A stretch of 32,277 bases of DNA, taken from a virus. Position 1 is the stretch's first letter; each line of letters opens with the position of its first letter. A program made the position numbers and the translations under genes. Under the pieces are notes generated by a model. It was not told the DNA's origin, ran no database searches, and was given only the letters and a program-made list of their open reading frames with translations. Positions 5,565 to 31,953 of the stretch are shown piece after piece. The DNA is taken from positions 1 to 32,277 of the IMG/VR virus record IMGVR_UViG_3300031658_000057; one strand, given 5' to 3'.

Positions 5565-5594
5565 GTTAATTATTATGTTAATATAGTTGTTAAT
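5564..5594. repeat. Three phased TGTTAAT direct repeats, candidate operator
   Basis: TGTTAAT occurs at 5564-5570, 5576-5582 and 5588-5594, an exact 12-nt period. The third copy overlaps the -33 element of the putative early promoter. This arrangement would suit a regulator binding beside or over the promoter. The hexamer GTTAAT also heads each unit of the repeats inside the replication gene (8626-8685). In AT-rich DNA the word alone is not rare; the regular spacing is the evidence. Confidence 0.45.
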
Positions 5595-5616
5595 TCAATT
5601 ATTTTATGTATATTTA
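5587..5616 (+). promoter_or_regulatory. Early promoter of Bacteroidetes type
   Basis: TTG at 5587-5589 and TATATTTA at 5609-5616 are separated by 19 nt, matching the known Bacteroidetes primary promoter (TTTG, 19-21 nt, TAnnTTTG) except for the last base. Transcription would start a few bases downstream, giving a leader of roughly 20 nt before the ATG at 5640. It heads the early operon and would use the host sigma factor. Confidence 0.6.
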
Positions 5617-10652: not shown

Positions 10653-11009
10653 ATGGTCAAACCCATATTTTCAAGTGTAGAGCATAAATCTTATGTAGAG
10701 GAATATTTAAAGTTAATGTTATCATTTGTAAAAGAATCATCCTCAGAATCAAAATACAATTCTTTTGTAGAGGTTATAGATTTAATAATTAACTATCATA
10801 ATGGCTATGGAGAAGATATGGTAGCAAATAATTTTAATGATTGGTTAATGATTCTACCAATTAATCTTTCAATATGTTGTAATGGTTACTTTGCTGCATT
10901 AGAAACAAAAAGAAACAGAGAATCATTAAGAGCATATAGAGTTTTGTTAGATAATTATTTAGAAGATTGTGTTATTAATTTAAGCAATTTAAACTATAAA
11001 AATGACTGA
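10653..11009 (+). CDS. Hypothetical protein upstream of the sigma-like gene
   Basis: 118 residues from ATG at 10653; a TTG two codons upstream is inside the promoter-like element. The sequence is helical, with VEEYLKLMLSFVKESSSESK, a hydrophobic WLMILPINLSICCNGYFAAL stretch that is probably a buried helix rather than a membrane span, and an acidic C terminus. It overlaps the sigma-like gene by 8 nt, so the two are translationally coupled, and it could be a partner or regulator of that factor. No family recognised. Confidence 0.6.
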   Translation: MVKPIFSSVEHKSYVEEYLKLMLSFVKESSSESKYNSFVEVIDLIINYHNGYGEDMVANNFNDWLMILPINLSICCNGYFAALETKRNRESLRAYRVLLDNYLEDCVINLSNLNYKND

Positions 11010-11565
11010 GATATATCAAGCAGTAGCAAATTGCAGACCAAAATTTGTTGAAATATCCAACTCTTTTACTAAAGACACTAACGAAATTGATGAGGTAGTT
11101 CAGGAATGTATAATTTATTTTATGCAGATGAATCCTCAGACTTTAAAAAATATTTACATAAAAGATGGACAGAAAGGATTAATAAGGTATGGTGCAGTTG
11201 TAATCAGAAGAAGTTTTACATCTGTTAGAAGTCCTTATTATTACAAGTACAAGAAATATTATACACATATAGATTCACATTCAAGTAATTTAACATACGA
11301 ACTTACTCAAAGGGATAATGAATCTAATAAAAAACATCTTTACAATATACCTCCTACTGAAGAATATGTTCAATGGAAAAAGCTAGAACAGATTGACAAA
11401 GCATTAGAAGATTTCTATTGGTATGATAGGGATGTTTTTAAACTCTACTATTACGAAGGACATACATTAACAGGCTTAGCTAAGAAAACAGGTATAAGTA
11501 GGAATAGTTTGTTTACGACTATAGATAAAGTAAGAGAGCAGCTTAAAGAAATATTTGATGAATAA
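11002..11565 (+). CDS. Sigma-70-like transcription factor of phage
   Basis: 187 residues. The C-terminal part (about 125-185) has a sigma region 4 helix-turn-helix: RDVFKLYYYEGHTLTGLAKK, then TGISRNSLFTTIDKVREQLK. The N-terminal part (about 24-80) has a short helical segment, NEIDEVVQECIIYFMQMNP, comparable to region 2 of small sigma factors, followed by a basic stretch. Its length fits ECF-type sigma factors. It would direct RNA polymerase to phage promoters, and the conserved late elements at 13244, 16544, 25850, 26598 and 28932 are the natural candidates. That link is inference. An alternative is a late activator with only a region-4-like HTH. Confidence 0.7.
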   Translation: MTEIYQAVANCRPKFVEISNSFTKDTNEIDEVVQECIIYFMQMNPQTLKNIYIKDGQKGLIRYGAVVIRRSFTSVRSPYYYKYKKYYTHIDSHSSNLTYELTQRDNESNKKHLYNIPPTEEYVQWKKLEQIDKALEDFYWYDRDVFKLYYYEGHTLTGLAKKTGISRNSLFTTIDKVREQLKEIFDE

Positions 11566-12940: not shown

Positions 12941-13233
12941 ATGATAACTTAACTACAATAATTATAACAACAATATCTGTAATGTTTGGTGCAGGGGGTT
13001 GGAAGTTTTACGAGTTTCTGATAAGAAACAAAAGAGAAAAAGATAAAGAAGAAAAATCAGAGCAATCTATATATAGAGATGATTTAAAAATCAGAGTAGA
13101 TAAATTAGAAATATACAAAGATGATTGTGTAATGACAATGTTAGATTTAAAAACAGAACTTGCTAAATTAAAAGTTACTGTTGAATTTTTACAAAAAGAA
13201 AACGAAGTATTAAAAATTAAATTACAAAAATAA
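12937..13233 (+). CDS. Membrane-anchored coiled-coil protein
   Basis: 98 residues: an N-terminal hydrophobic helix at about 6-28 (TTIIITTISVMFGAGGWKFY), a highly charged linker, and a predicted coiled coil at about 45-98 with heptad-like leucines (VDKLEIYKDD, MLDLKTELAKLK, VEFLQKENEVLKIKL). The architecture resembles inner-membrane spanin subunits or other small anchored phage proteins, but no outer-membrane lipoprotein partner (spanin o-subunit) is evident. It ends 25 nt before the ParB-like gene's ATG, in the gap that holds the first late element. Confidence 0.6.
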   Translation: MNDNLTTIIITTISVMFGAGGWKFYEFLIRNKREKDKEEKSEQSIYRDDLKIRVDKLEIYKDDCVMTMLDLKTELAKLKVTVEFLQKENEVLKIKLQK

Positions 13234-13243
13234 AAATTAACTA

Positions 13244-13261
13244 TTTCTATTATATAATATG
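13244..13261 (+). promoter_or_regulatory. Putative late promoter element, copy 1
   Basis: TTTCTATTATATAATATG, whose last three bases are the ATG of the ParB-like gene. It contains the 12-bp palindrome TATTATATAATA. Preceded by ATTAACTA. A near-identical element and flank occur at 16544. If this is the promoter, the message is leaderless or nearly so. No Shine-Dalgarno is present. It heads the ParB, glycosyltransferase and terminase operon. Confidence 0.65.
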
Positions 13262-13963
13262 AAGTTAAAAATCAATGAGTTAAAACCAAATCAAGATAAT
13301 CCTAGAATTATAAAAGAAGGTAAATTTAAAAAACTTGTAAAGTCTATTAAAGAATTTCCTGAAATGTTAGAACTTAGACCAATAGTGGTAGATGAAGATA
13401 TGACTATTTTAGGTGGTAATATGAGATATAAAGCTTGTGTAGAAGCAGGAATAAAAGAAGTATATATAAAAATTGCAAAAGATTTAACAAAAGAACAAAA
13501 AAGAGAATTTATAATAAAAGATAATTTAAGTTTTGGGGAATGGGATTGGGATATTATTGCTAATGAATGGAGTGTAGAACCTTTAGAGACTTGGTCTTTA
13601 GATTTACCTTTGTATGATGAAAATAAATACACTAAAAATATAGAAGCACCTAGCTATAAACCAACAAATATTAAACCTGAAATATATCAATTATTTGATG
13701 ATACTAAATCTTTAGAATTAATTGAAAAAATTAAAAAAAGCAATGTAAATGAGGAAATAAAAGATTTTTTAATTAAATCAGCTTATAGACATATAGTTTT
13801 TAACTATGAAAATATAGCAGAATTTTATACACATAATGATAAAGAAGTACAAGAATTGATGGAAGAATCTGCTTTAATAATTATAGATTTAAATAAAGCT
13901 ATTAAAAATGGATTTGTACAAATGACAGAATACTTAATGAATATACAACAAGAAGATGAATAA
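13259..13963 (+). CDS. ParB-like N-terminal domain protein
   Basis: 234 residues. Residues 4-95 match the ParB/Srx-like domain used by phage and plasmid partition proteins and phage modification enzymes: INELKPNQDNPRII, KLVKSIKEFPEMLELRPIVV, then ILGGNMRYKACVEAG (50-64; GGNMR is the expected motif). It ends with an acidic helical region. In phages, such proteins often pair with DNA-modifying enzymes or terminases, and some have nuclease or CTP-binding activity; none is proven here. Next to it (8-nt overlap) is a glycosyltransferase. Together they begin the late operon headed by the element at 13244. Confidence 0.8.
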   Translation: MKLKINELKPNQDNPRIIKEGKFKKLVKSIKEFPEMLELRPIVVDEDMTILGGNMRYKACVEAGIKEVYIKIAKDLTKEQKREFIIKDNLSFGEWDWDIIANEWSVEPLETWSLDLPLYDENKYTKNIEAPSYKPTNIKPEIYQLFDDTKSLELIEKIKKSNVNEEIKDFLIKSAYRHIVFNYENIAEFYTHNDKEVQELMEESALIIIDLNKAIKNGFVQMTEYLMNIQQEDE

Positions 13964-14801
13964 AGATTTAGCTATATTTATTATGGTTCACGGTAGACCT
14001 GATAAGATGTGGACTTATAATAACCTAAGAAAATCAGGATATACAGGGCAAATTTTTTTAGTAGCAGATAATTTAGATGATACAAGATTTAAGTATAAAG
14101 AAAAATATGGAAAAGAATTATTAATCTTTGATAAAAAAAAAGCAGCACTAAATTGCGAATCCGGAGATAATACTAATGATTTAAGAAGTACATTATATTC
14201 AGCTAATACAATTTTTGAGTTAGCTAAAGAAAAAAAATTTAAATACTTTTTTATTATGTGTGATGATTACACAGGTTTTTATCATAATTTCAATAAAGAT
14301 TTAAAGTTTAAAAAAACTGCTATTAAAAGTTTAGATAAAGTTTTTAAAAGTATGTTAGATTTTTATAAGAAAACACCAATATTAACATTAGCTATGGCTC
14401 AGGCAGGGGATTTTATAGGTGGAGAAAAAGGAGGTAATGCTAAAGTTAAACTTATGCGAAAAGCTATGAATACTTTTTTGTGTAGTACGGATAGACCTTT
14501 TAAATTTACAGGTAGATTAAATGAAGATGTTACAACTTACGTTAACTTAGGAAGGGTAGGCAAATTATTTATGACAATAACAAATTTATGTATAGTTCAG
14601 AAAGGACATCAACAGGAAAAAAGTGGTTTAACAGAAGTGTATTTAGATTACGGAACATACGTTAAATCATTTTTTTCAGTAATGTATAATCCATCTTGCG
14701 TTAAAATATCTGACTTAGGAACTAAACATAAAAGAATACATCATAAAATTAAATGGAAAAATGCAGTACCTAAAATAATAGAAGAAATTTATAAAAAATA
14801 A
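13956..14801 (+). CDS. Glycosyltransferase of TET-associated (TAGT) type
   Basis: 281 residues. The N terminus has a nucleotide-sugar fold pattern (GRPDKMWTYNNLRKSGYTGQ, IFLVADNLDD) and a DxD-like DDYTGF (103-108). The middle has NEDVTTY (189-195). The C terminus has EVYLDYGTYVKSFFSVMYNP, then HHKIKWKNAVPKI. These blocks match what I know of the TET-associated glycosyltransferase family of phages, which adds sugars to hydroxymethylated bases of phage DNA. No TET dioxygenase, C5-methyltransferase or thymidylate-type hydroxymethylase is seen here, so the acceptor is unknown. It overlaps the ParB-like gene by 8 nt and touches the small terminase start (TAATG). Confidence 0.7.
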   Translation: MNKDLAIFIMVHGRPDKMWTYNNLRKSGYTGQIFLVADNLDDTRFKYKEKYGKELLIFDKKKAALNCESGDNTNDLRSTLYSANTIFELAKEKKFKYFFIMCDDYTGFYHNFNKDLKFKKTAIKSLDKVFKSMLDFYKKTPILTLAMAQAGDFIGGEKGGNAKVKLMRKAMNTFLCSTDRPFKFTGRLNEDVTTYVNLGRVGKLFMTITNLCIVQKGHQQEKSGLTEVYLDYGTYVKSFFSVMYNPSCVKISDLGTKHKRIHHKIKWKNAVPKIIEEIYKK

Positions 14802-16483: not shown

Positions 16484-16543
16484 CTTAACAGAGAAACATT
16501 ATGAAAACGTAACAAATGTACGATATTAAACTAAATATTAACC

Positions 16544-16562
16544 TTTTCTATTATATAATATG
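16544..16562 (+). promoter_or_regulatory. Putative late promoter element, copy 2
   Basis: TTTTCTATTATATAATATG, last three bases being the ATG of the tail-chaperone gene. It shares with copy 1 an upstream ATTAAC and the palindrome TATTATATAATA. The gap 16484-16543 between terminator and element contains no other gene (only a 3-codon ATG AAA ACG TAA). It heads the tail gene operon. Confidence 0.65.
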
Positions 16563-25826: not shown

Positions 25827-25849
25827 AAATCAAATAATAACTAATTAAA

Positions 25850-25865
25850 TCTATTATATTATATG
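25850..25865 (+). promoter_or_regulatory. Putative late promoter element, copy 3
   Basis: TCTATTATATTATATG, with ATG of the prohead protease at its end. One base differs from the main form, which breaks the palindrome. TTAAAAATCAAA lies 16 nt upstream (25823-25834), as at copy 4. It sits in the 36-nt gap after the tape measure stop and starts the head gene cluster. Confidence 0.6.
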
Positions 25866-26597
25866 CCTTGTACAAAATGCGATAACGGAAAATGGAAGTG
25901 GGGAGAAAATGGAGAGTGTAAATACGATTCAAAAGATGCTTGTGAAATAGCTAACCCTAAACATTATAAGAATTTAAAGTCTACTAAGATAGTAGAGTTA
26001 ATTATTAGTGATGAAAGTCAAGAACTTACTATTGATGCTATTAGTTTGGTTACCAGTCCTGCAATAGAGCAAGACTTTGTTTTCTTTGGTAAGGAAAAAA
26101 CTAATTTAACATTTGCTAAGATAGATGAGGAGAAAAGAATGTTGGTTAGTCCTGCTCTAATACCAAATAAACAGATTTTTAGACACGACCCAAATACAGA
26201 TACTGACTACTATGTTTATTTCTCTAAAGATACTGTAAGAGAAGCTAGTCAGCTTTATTTGAAACATAACAATCATCATAAAGCTACATATCAGCACGAA
26301 GATAGAGTTTCAGGAGTATTAACTACTGAATCTTGGATAAAAGAAGGAGATATGGATAAATCTAAACTTTATGGCTATGACCTTCCAAACGGAACTTGGT
26401 TTGTATCTATGAAAATAGAGAATGATGAAATTTGGAATAAGATTAAAGATGGAGAATTGAAGGGTTTAAGCATTGAAGGATTTTTTATTGATAAAATGGA
26501 AAAGATGTCAGAAACAGTTAAACCAACTAATGAAGAAATACTTTCAGCATTAAATGAAATCATAAACGATGTTAAAAATCAAACAAACAATAAATAA
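25863..26597 (+). CDS. Prohead protease, XkdF-like serine protease
   Basis: 244 residues. The core (about 55-210) has the XkdF/Peptidase_S78_2 pattern: DAISLVTSPAIEQDFVFF, RMLVSPALIPNKQIFR, then YQHEDRVSGVLTTESWIKEG (His145 probable catalytic), GTWFVSMKI, and LKGLSIEGFFID (Ser203 probable nucleophile). It would mature the prohead by cleaving scaffold and capsid proteins. The N-terminal 35 residues carry four cysteines (C3, C6, C19, C27) in CTKCDNGKWKWGENGECKY, a possible small zinc knot. Placement before a scaffold-like gene and the capsid gene is standard. Starts at the ATG of late element 3. Confidence 0.85.
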   Translation: MPCTKCDNGKWKWGENGECKYDSKDACEIANPKHYKNLKSTKIVELIISDESQELTIDAISLVTSPAIEQDFVFFGKEKTNLTFAKIDEEKRMLVSPALIPNKQIFRHDPNTDTDYYVYFSKDTVREASQLYLKHNNHHKATYQHEDRVSGVLTTESWIKEGDMDKSKLYGYDLPNGTWFVSMKIENDEIWNKIKDGELKGLSIEGFFIDKMEKMSETVKPTNEEILSALNEIINDVKNQTNNK

Positions 26598-26613
26598 TTC
26601 TATTATATAATAT
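26598..26613 (+). promoter_or_regulatory. Putative late promoter element, copy 4 (not fused to an ATG)
   Basis: TTCTATTATATAATAT with the full palindrome, followed by AAAAAACTAACT and then ATG at 26626, 12 nt downstream. Unlike the other copies it is not fused to the start codon, which argues that the element acts in transcription. TTAAAAATCAAA lies 16 nt upstream (26572-26583). It precedes the scaffold and capsid genes. Confidence 0.65.
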
Positions 26614-28913: not shown

Positions 28914-28931
28914 CCAAACAAAATCAATGTT

Positions 28932-28949
28932 TTTCTATTATATAGTATG
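28932..28949 (+). promoter_or_regulatory. Putative late promoter element, copy 5
   Basis: TTTCTATTATATAGTATG with the ATG of the next gene at its end (one base different from copy 1). It lies 18 nt after the strong terminator at 28886-28913, so it likely starts a new transcript for the small structural and fibre genes. Confidence 0.6.
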
Positions 28950-29716: not shown

Positions 29717-29884
29717 ATGAAGTTAGCATTAGGAATGTCATTGCCTTCAAGTAATAAGGGAGGATTAACACCTACTCAAAAAATAGTAAATGATTTTAAA
29801 GCTAGAGTTATTGCTGATGGAGGGGTATTTGAGGCTAAGGCTTGTTTAGATGCACAATTAGTAATATTAAATAATATACAATGA
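29717..29884 (+). CDS. Small protein before the fibre gene
   Basis: A 55-codon frame (MKLALGMSLPSSNKGGLTPT, then VNDFKARVIADGGVFEAKAC, ending ILNNIQ). The DFKxRVxADGGxxEAxxC pattern is common in short Bacteroidetes phage proteins and domains near tail fibres, which supports it being real. Its stop overlaps the fibre gene start (ATGA), as at many junctions in this genome. Function unknown; a fibre-assembly aid or minor component is possible. Confidence 0.6.
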   Translation: MKLALGMSLPSSNKGGLTPTQKIVNDFKARVIADGGVFEAKACLDAQLVILNNIQ

Positions 29885-31953
29885 GTTTATTAGATGATGT
29901 AAGTATTGTAGTAACACCAAATGGATATAAGGCAGGAGAACTATATGCTGTTATTCCTGTACCTACTGAGGGTGCTGAGCAAGTAACTAATGGTGATTTC
30001 GCTACAGATACAGGTTGGGATAAACGAAATGGTAGTACAATAAGTGGTGGTGTAGGTAATGTTATAGCTAATGGAGATTTAGGGAATACAGGGAATAATT
30101 GGTCTTTAAATCAAGGCGTTGGTATGGTTGTAGGTAAGTTATATAAAATAAGTTTTAGTGCAAGACAAACAGGTGGTACGGGTAATTTACAAGTAGGTCA
30201 AGCATATACTGCAGGTTTCAGCCAAAACATAACATCTGGTTTTGTTAATTACTCATTTATTATAACTCCTGCTGATTATGGCGTTAATACAGAGAGAGTA
30301 TCTATAGGTGGCTCGGTAATTGGAGATACTTTTGAGGTTGATAACGTATCAGTAAAAGAATACACAGCAGCTGATATGGATGTTACAAGAGCAACAGCAG
30401 CAACAAGAGTAGATGAGGATGGATTAGTTAATTACGCAGAGGTTTTAGGAAGTGAGGAGGTTACTAATGGAGATTTTGCTACTGATTTAAGTGGGTGGAC
30501 TATATCAGGTAATGATGCAACACATACTGTAACTTGGACTGCAAGTGGGGCAAGGTTTCAATCCGACACTACAAGCCCTGTAATGGAATTTAAACAATTA
30601 AACCTATTAACATCAGGTAAACAATATGTATTAACTTGTAATATAGCATATACAGGTGTAGGTCAATTAAGAGTTAATGTAGGAAGTAATTTAACTGCTT
30701 TTACAGAAGGTGCAAATACAAGATATTTTTCTGCTACATCAAGCACAATGTCTTTTCTAAGAGAAAATGCAAATGTAGATGCTATAATTTCAAACGTATC
30801 AGTAAAAGAACTAATAAGAGATAACGTACCTCGTATAGACTACTCAGGAGGAGGTTGTCCACATATATTAGCAGAGCCACAGAGGACTAATTTGGTTACA
30901 GAGTCAAGTGATTATAGTGGGTACTCTAAGTCATCTATAAATATTGTTAGTAATATATCTACAAGTCCTGATGGAAGTGTTAATGCAACTTCAGTAACTA
31001 ATACGAGTACAGGTCAATCACACATTAGAACAGGCTTTACAGCTTCTTCAACAGGGGATTACACGGGTAGTTCATATATTAAAAAGCAAGACTTTGATTT
31101 TATTTATGTAGAGTTTGGAAATGCTTATGCTTGGTTTAATATATCCAATGGTACTTTAGGTAATTCAGGTAATTTTGGAAGTGGTTGGACTTTTGTAAGT
31201 CATTCAATAGAAAGTGTAGGTAATGATTGGTATAGAATATCTATTACTGCAAATAATACAATTACAGGTGGTTATAACTTTAGACCTTATCAGCCAACAT
31301 CTGCTAATGGTAATTATACTTCAGGTTCATTAGGAGATTCTTTTATGTGGGGTACTCAAGTAGAGCAAGGCTCTTACGCAACATCTTACATTCCAACATC
31401 AGGTTCAACAGTAACTCGTAATCAAGACCAATTCACAAGAGATGGTATATCAAGTTTAATTAATAGTACAGAGGGGGTTTTTATGGTGGAATTATCACCT
31501 TCTTTTCCTGCTGGAACAAGACAGATTTCGCTTAACGATGGAAGTTACGTAAATAGAATAATTATAGAGGTGAGAAATAGCGGGGGTACAATTAAATGTC
31601 TTTTAGTTTCTTCAAGTGTAGTACAAGCCGAAATAGATTATACCGTAAGTAATATTTTAGATTATTATAAAGTAGCAATAAGATACGAATTAAATAATGT
31701 TTCCATTTGGGTTAATGGTTTGCAAATTGGTTCTACCGACACATCTGCCACTATGCCTATTGGATTAAACTCTTTTTCTTTTGACGGAAATAGTTTAAGT
31801 GGACTACCTTTTTACGGTAAAGTAAAACAACTACAAGTATACTCTACTGCTCTATCAGACGAACAGCTTATACAACTTACAGGTACATCAGGAACTGACT
31901 TTTATGAATCATATGCAGCAATGGCAAGTGCATTAACATATACAATACAATAA
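29881..31953 (+). CDS. Modular fibre / receptor-binding-like protein
   Basis: 690 residues, beta-rich. Two tandem carbohydrate-binding-like modules start with VTNGDFATDT (36-45) and VTNGDFATDL (194-203), and each ends in a [NV]VSVKE motif (near 155 and 306). The linker between them carries MDVTRATAATRVDEDGLVNY (166-185). A TNLVTESSDYSGYSKSS segment begins a further domain, which ends with TSYIPTSGSTVTRNQDQF (501-518). A LamG-like domain (about 525-665) ends FYGKVKQLQVYSTALSDEQ. Likely a virion fibre or spike recognising surface glycans; target not known. Paralogue of the genes at 1-1035 and 31953 onwards. Its stop overlaps the next ATG. Confidence 0.75.
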   Translation: MSLLDDVSIVVTPNGYKAGELYAVIPVPTEGAEQVTNGDFATDTGWDKRNGSTISGGVGNVIANGDLGNTGNNWSLNQGVGMVVGKLYKISFSARQTGGTGNLQVGQAYTAGFSQNITSGFVNYSFIITPADYGVNTERVSIGGSVIGDTFEVDNVSVKEYTAADMDVTRATAATRVDEDGLVNYAEVLGSEEVTNGDFATDLSGWTISGNDATHTVTWTASGARFQSDTTSPVMEFKQLNLLTSGKQYVLTCNIAYTGVGQLRVNVGSNLTAFTEGANTRYFSATSSTMSFLRENANVDAIISNVSVKELIRDNVPRIDYSGGGCPHILAEPQRTNLVTESSDYSGYSKSSINIVSNISTSPDGSVNATSVTNTSTGQSHIRTGFTASSTGDYTGSSYIKKQDFDFIYVEFGNAYAWFNISNGTLGNSGNFGSGWTFVSHSIESVGNDWYRISITANNTITGGYNFRPYQPTSANGNYTSGSLGDSFMWGTQVEQGSYATSYIPTSGSTVTRNQDQFTRDGISSLINSTEGVFMVELSPSFPAGTRQISLNDGSYVNRIIIEVRNSGGTIKCLLVSSSVVQAEIDYTVSNILDYYKVAIRYELNNVSIWVNGLQIGSTDTSATMPIGLNSFSFDGNSLSGLPFYGKVKQLQVYSTALSDEQLIQLTGTSGTDFYESYAAMASALTYTIQ

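Follow-up and report, generated by a model that had tools for sequence, protein, structure and literature searches.

We propose that a 187-amino-acid protein encoded by an uncultured marine phage is very probably an ECF-like (group 4) late sigma factor that reads a bipartite promoter placed ahead of the late operons of the same phage. The genome is represented by IMG/VR record IMGVR_UViG_3300031658_000057, of which the whole 32,277-nt stretch was analysed (hereafter the window). The directly computed support consists of the fold of the protein, a motif with fixed geometry, the reciprocal co-occurrence of gene and motif, a rule of strand and position, and a difference between early and late promoters; we infer the binding of core RNA polymerase, the direct recognition of the element, the exact start sites and the timing. 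In the proposed programme, the early block (replication, SSB and NinG genes, and then the sigma gene) would be transcribed by the host primary sigma factor, which would use a Bacteroidetes promoter of the usual -33/-7 type and give a leader of ~20 nt. The phage sigma factor would then recruit the host core RNA polymerase to the late promoter, an AAAC/AAAT box at -33 plus TTCTATTATATAATA, ahead of the packaging, head and tail operons. Late transcripts would start at or near the ATG, leaving most late mRNAs with little or no leader.

The early block is tightly packed, and the sigma gene sits in it after a NinG-like gene and before the first late operon; conserved homologues of its product are encoded by at least 322 stretches of viral contigs. 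A first-pass annotation, made from the sequence alone, had described a clear sigma region 4-like HTH in the protein, and this is borne out by both profiles and structure. The single sequence matches Sigma70_r4 (E 5e-4, 19.9 bits, below the Pfam curated cut-off of 24.1), Sigma70_r4_2 (E 2e-3, also under the Pfam cut-off) and the regulator and sigma factor families phrog_36, phrog_1740 and phrog_1190 (E 3e-4 to 3e-3), and in Pfam profiles its region 4 weakly resembles other HTH families too. Among 31 members of the family, 27 match Sigma70_r4_2 (best E 2e-5) and 29 match phrog_36 (best E 8e-7); the helix ISRNSLFTTIDKVR of this domain is near-invariant among family members. The region 4 domain superposes on SigF (8jzt_C) at 1.6 Å over 63 residues. 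No solved-structure relative was found by sequence with the single protein as query, the family profile gave weak FliA and sigma matches to solved structures and nothing stronger, and tblastn against INPHARED with the 187-aa sigma as query returned no match. One relative carries an additional, incomplete sigma gene copy at a contig end (G074:C1:31448-31630).

In the predicted structure, N-terminal helices (residues 2-10, 12-19, 26-42, 45-73 and 78-84) and C-terminal helices (124-135, 140-150, 156-163 and 167-184) form two helical domains joined by a linker (90-119) that is predicted to be disordered. Foldseek comparison of the full-length model with the PDB returned mostly sigma factors as top matches, the best being the M. 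tuberculosis ECF sigma L (E 9.9e-4, probability 1.00, full length), which upholds the earlier description of the protein as sigma-like. The weaker region 2-like part noted in that description has no Pfam match and is recovered by fold: modelled separately (pLDDT 95.7), this domain aligned with sigma L with a VIA-align Z of 8.6 (2.7 Å, 75 residues), and the first six chains in a structural search were all sigma or sigma-like. Foldseek with region 2 only gave no significant E-value. The identity of region 2 is thus well supported by the predicted model and its topology, not by sequence. With respect to ECF (group 4) membership, the protein has a region 4 HTH (by fold, with Pfam r4 below cut-off), a region 2 (by fold only), no regions other than these two and their linker (regions 1.1 and 3 are absent), and a bipartite promoter with ~16 nt between the boxes, which is tied to the protein by co-occurrence. 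As for a phage late sigma factor, the gene is located in the early block and the targets are found only in late operons.

Alignment of non-redundant copies from relatives defined the two boxes of the late element, YAAA[AC][TC][AG]AA at -33 to -25 and TTCTATTATATAATA at -14 to 0, separated by ~10 variable bases; position 0, the final A, usually coincides with the first base of the ATG start codon. The late element that had been noticed initially is therefore real, and it is larger than first described, having an extra -33 box at a fixed spacing: the AAMYRAA box starts at -31 in 60 of 65 non-redundant elements. In the consensus, the core 12-mer is perfectly palindromic; among the 65 copies, the right half of the -10 palindrome varies and the left half does not change. 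A PWM trained without the window detected exactly five window sites (18.9-34.3 bits), all on the + strand and, as the first-pass annotation had stated for the late elements, all 3' of the sigma gene; the next best window site scored 4.8 bits, and the highest in 20 random windows 11.4 bits. With a looser pattern, 1.3 chance matches are expected in the window against the five real copies, and the held-out matrix together with shuffles ruled out a chance AT-rich sequence. All five late promoters are located at operon starts, with a gap in front (Table 1).

Table 1. Positions in the window of the sigma factor gene, its domains and the predicted promoters.
Feature	Position	Strand	Basis
Host-type early promoter (probable), TTG-N19-TATATTTA, 23 nt before ATG 5640	5587..5616	+	One mismatch to TAnnTTTG
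ECF-like sigma factor gene, 187 aa	11002..11565	+	ORF call, family profiles, predicted fold
Sigma region 2-like domain, residues 1-88	11002..11265	+	AF2 pLDDT 95.7; fold superposition on sigma L region 2
Sigma region 4-like HTH domain, residues 123-187	11368..11562	+	Profiles; fit to 8jzt_C
Late promoter, ParB-like/terminase operon; last A is A of ATG 13259	13226..13259	+	PWM 26.1 bits
Late promoter, gene 16560; last A is A of ATG	16527..16560	+	PWM 34.3 bits
Late promoter, head-maturation-protease-like gene; last A is A of ATG 25863	25830..25863	+	PWM 18.9 bits
Late promoter before gene 26626 and capsid gene 27317; predicted leader 14 nt	26579..26612	+	PWM 28.6 bits
Late promoter, gene 28947; last A is A of ATG	28914..28947	+	PWM 27.7 bits

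The sigma gene and the element were found together whichever of the two was used as the starting point. In sigma-first clade 1, 435 kb of downstream sequence contained 119 forward late sites and 0 reverse, and 411 kb of upstream sequence contained one forward site. This single upstream site (in L200) precedes an orthologue of the window late gene 28947 (45% identity, 160 aa) and was for this reason dismissed as a counterexample. All 49 clade 1 loci whose downstream sequence reaches 3.5 kb or more have a late site. In clade 2, found with a sigma ~48% identical to that of the window, there were 90 forward sites downstream, 0 reverse and 0 upstream, and a late site was present in 43 of 43 loci at 10 bits and in 42 of 43 at 14 bits. 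The -33 box was present in 112 of the 118 element-first loci. The co-variation of factor and element across phages, which had been suggested as a check, was observed in whole element-first records of 24 kb or longer: all 12 with the full bipartite element carry the sigma, and none of the 4 in which a chance 18-mer occurs without the -33 box does so. Common descent accounts for part of the co-occurrence inside a single phage group. Among near-full records, 37 of 39 hold 1-6 late sites in the phage contig, all on the strand of the sigma gene bar one stray one-mismatch match. None of 107 late sites fell within the early blocks (125 kb in total, bounded by the preceding phosphatase gene and the sigma gene). 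In two relatives (G027:C1:18501-19193 and G071:C1:14089-14781), an in-frame TAA interrupts the phosphatase homologue, which may thus be a broken gene or have a later start of its reading frame.

In three relatives, G062, G063 and G064, the -10 has lineage-specific forms, such as CTATTTAATATT and CTCTTTAATAGT in G063; these occur at the same orthologous genes and leave the -33 box and the distance to the ATG unchanged. G063 and G064, the two near-full records with no matching site, were rejected as phages with sigma but without the element on account of these variant elements. The pairing of particular sigma residues with the -10 variants was not clean, as L213 combines a variant-like region 2 with a canonical element.

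The early genes carry a host-type promoter instead of the late element, which supports the cascade of an early factor and a distinct late promoter that had been put forward in the first-pass annotation. In the gap opening the early block, TAnnTTTG occurs in 65 of 68 non-redundant relatives (shuffles predict 18); in most of them TTG lies 19-20 nt upstream of this motif and the ATG 18-39 nt downstream, and the early block has a normal leader. The published promoter consensus of Bacteroidetes is TTTG/TAnnTTTG (PMC6847099). The host-type early promoter therefore supports a Bacteroidetes host, as do the affinities of the terminase (56% to Flavobacterium phage 11b) and of the portal and capsid (matches in Nonlabens phage P12024S), and the hosts of this uncultured group are probably marine Flavobacteriia. 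When the host was sought via bacterial genomes, only two MAG contigs matched, and these look like misbinned phage. Phage contigs of the group, L200 (G086:C4, C49) and L201 (G087:C18), lie within MAGs labelled Pseudooceanicola and Euryarchaeota; these placements are probably binning errors.

Because the -10 element is so near the ATG, late transcripts should start at, or a few bases from, the start codon. In Salmonella phage 7-11, transcription starts 6-9 bp from the late promoter element (PMC8948821); by analogy, the late starts of the window family would lie 0-4 nt before the ATG. Late mRNAs are thus probably nearly leaderless in these phages, given the predicted start sites. Among 65 non-redundant elements, the predicted late leader is 0 nt in 26, 2 nt in 13 and 27-30 nt in 13; as leader length varies, leaderless late mRNA is not universal. 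Most of the 27-30 nt leaders precede a small gene of 85-90 aa and are palindromic, and a conserved leader of this length with the 12-bp palindrome TTGATTAATCAA (or TTGAATAATCAA) is found at L004:5225, L030:4412, L219:7620, L256:7598 and other loci. A hairpin in these 5' leaders was rejected because RNA folding was no better than in shuffles, and the palindrome may for the same reason be an operator. It is quite conceivable, if somewhat doubtful, that the sigma swap also alters translation, from leadered early mRNAs to late operons of which nearly all are leaderless or have leaders of 1-4 nt. If this is true, leaderless late messages would occur inside a bacterial phylum where few messages lack a leader (5.5% in F. 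psychrophilum; PMC9723704). Given the fusion of promoter and ATG, one may ask whether leaderless translation forms part of the takeover by the phage.

Other explanations of the gene and the element have to be considered. Flavobacteria have several ECF sigmas, and one promoter class of F. psychrophilum has a CGT -10 box like that of the P12024S sites described below (PMC9723704). A host alternative (ECF) sigma might therefore read the late element, with the phage protein serving as an anti-sigma, appropriator or activator. We regard this as unlikely, because the phage gene and the element co-occur both ways, the -10 drifts in concert inside single phage genomes, and the cultured relatives that are devoid of a phage sigma are devoid of the element as well.

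The near-palindrome TATTATATAATA could instead be a dimeric operator bound by the 187-aa protein as an HTH repressor or activator. The perfectly palindromic core 12-mer and the weak resemblance of region 4 to other HTH families are in favour of this view, which is nevertheless very unlikely: the symmetric operator was rejected on the asymmetric conservation of the -10 halves, the left being invariant while the right changes freely; the -33 box stays at a constant distance; the G062, G063 and G064 variants lose the palindrome; and the fold of the protein contains both sigma domains. A role of the element as a signal for translation initiation or mRNA processing appears very improbable indeed. 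Most copies do touch the start codon, and translation in Bacteroidetes prefers A-rich upstream bases (PMC6847099). However, the -33 box would fall outside the mRNA contact zone, the element is intact even 14-30 nt from the ATG, and it is confined to late operons, at operon starts.

The reading as a phage late sigma factor also has parallels among cultured phages. In the Nonlabens phage P12024S, a Sigma-70 region 2 gene (gp33, Sigma70_r2 over the Pfam cut-off) lies directly upstream of the terminase, and gp33/gp35 of P12024S/P12024L, both annotated as Sigma-70 region 2, agree with the window family in gene position and genome order. P12024S has seven + strand AAAC-N16/17-CGTTA sites at late genes (0.64 matches expected at random), with a C-to-ATG distance of 12 nt in six of seven and 11 nt in the other; the regex also matches at 35522, but no ATG adjoins this eighth match. 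Such sites are shared by the relatives L206-L212. Although P12024S/L and the window family have in common the AAAC-N16/17-C late sites with the -10 C 12 nt before the start codon, their sigmas are distant (hhalign E 8e-4, 50 columns, probability 25%) and the -10 is CGTTAATA in P12024S/L but CTATTATA in the window family. Within the literature searched, the P12024S/L promoters appear undescribed. In 11b, P12002L and phi10:1, which are also cultured, the late element is absent and no sigma was detectable.

Similarly, SaPh711_gp47 of the phiEco32-like Salmonella phage 7-11 is a phage sigma with region 4; the late promoter that it reads, GTAAtg-N16-aCTA, is bipartite and recurs across the late genes (PMC8948821). 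Unlike the window phage, 7-11 is enterobacterial, and it is by promoter layout that the two are likened here; promoters abutting start codons or leaderless mRNAs are not reported in that study (PMC8948821). The sigma of the 7-11-like Cronobacter phage GAP52 is a weak fold match to the 187-aa protein (E 0.035). Bacterial ECF sigmas such as M. tuberculosis sigma L and E. coli sigma E have the same two-domain fold, and their promoters are bipartite, with an AAC-type -35 and a spacer of ~16 nt; they differ in sequence (~11-17% identity) and in that the window protein is linked to a phage late regulon. T4 gp55 and SPO1 gp28/gp34 are late or middle phage sigmas that redirect the host RNA polymerase, as proposed for the window protein. 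In contrast to the bipartite promoters of the window, T4 late promoters have a -10 box only and need the sliding clamp.

A phage late sigma factor is a known kind of regulator, and what is notable here is the fusion of promoter and ATG, the abundance of the group and the existence of a cultured relative. The host early promoter, phage sigma and late promoter would make up a complete and testable transcription programme for widespread uncultured phages, and nothing comparable was found in the literature searched. From sequence, the early-to-late switch can be recognised in hundreds of uncultured phages, and the cultured P12024S/L make the programme directly testable. In addition, the sigma/promoter pairs are candidate orthogonal parts for Bacteroidetes.

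Two further observations concern other genes of the window. Positions 13956-14801, adjoining the ParB-like gene, match phrog_842 'beta-glucosyl-HMC-alpha-glucosyltransferase' (E 7e-68), a similarity hinting at DNA base modification. The tail-fibre-like proteins encoded at 232-1035 and 29881-31953 have paralogous C-terminal ends, with stretches of 72-84% DNA identity.
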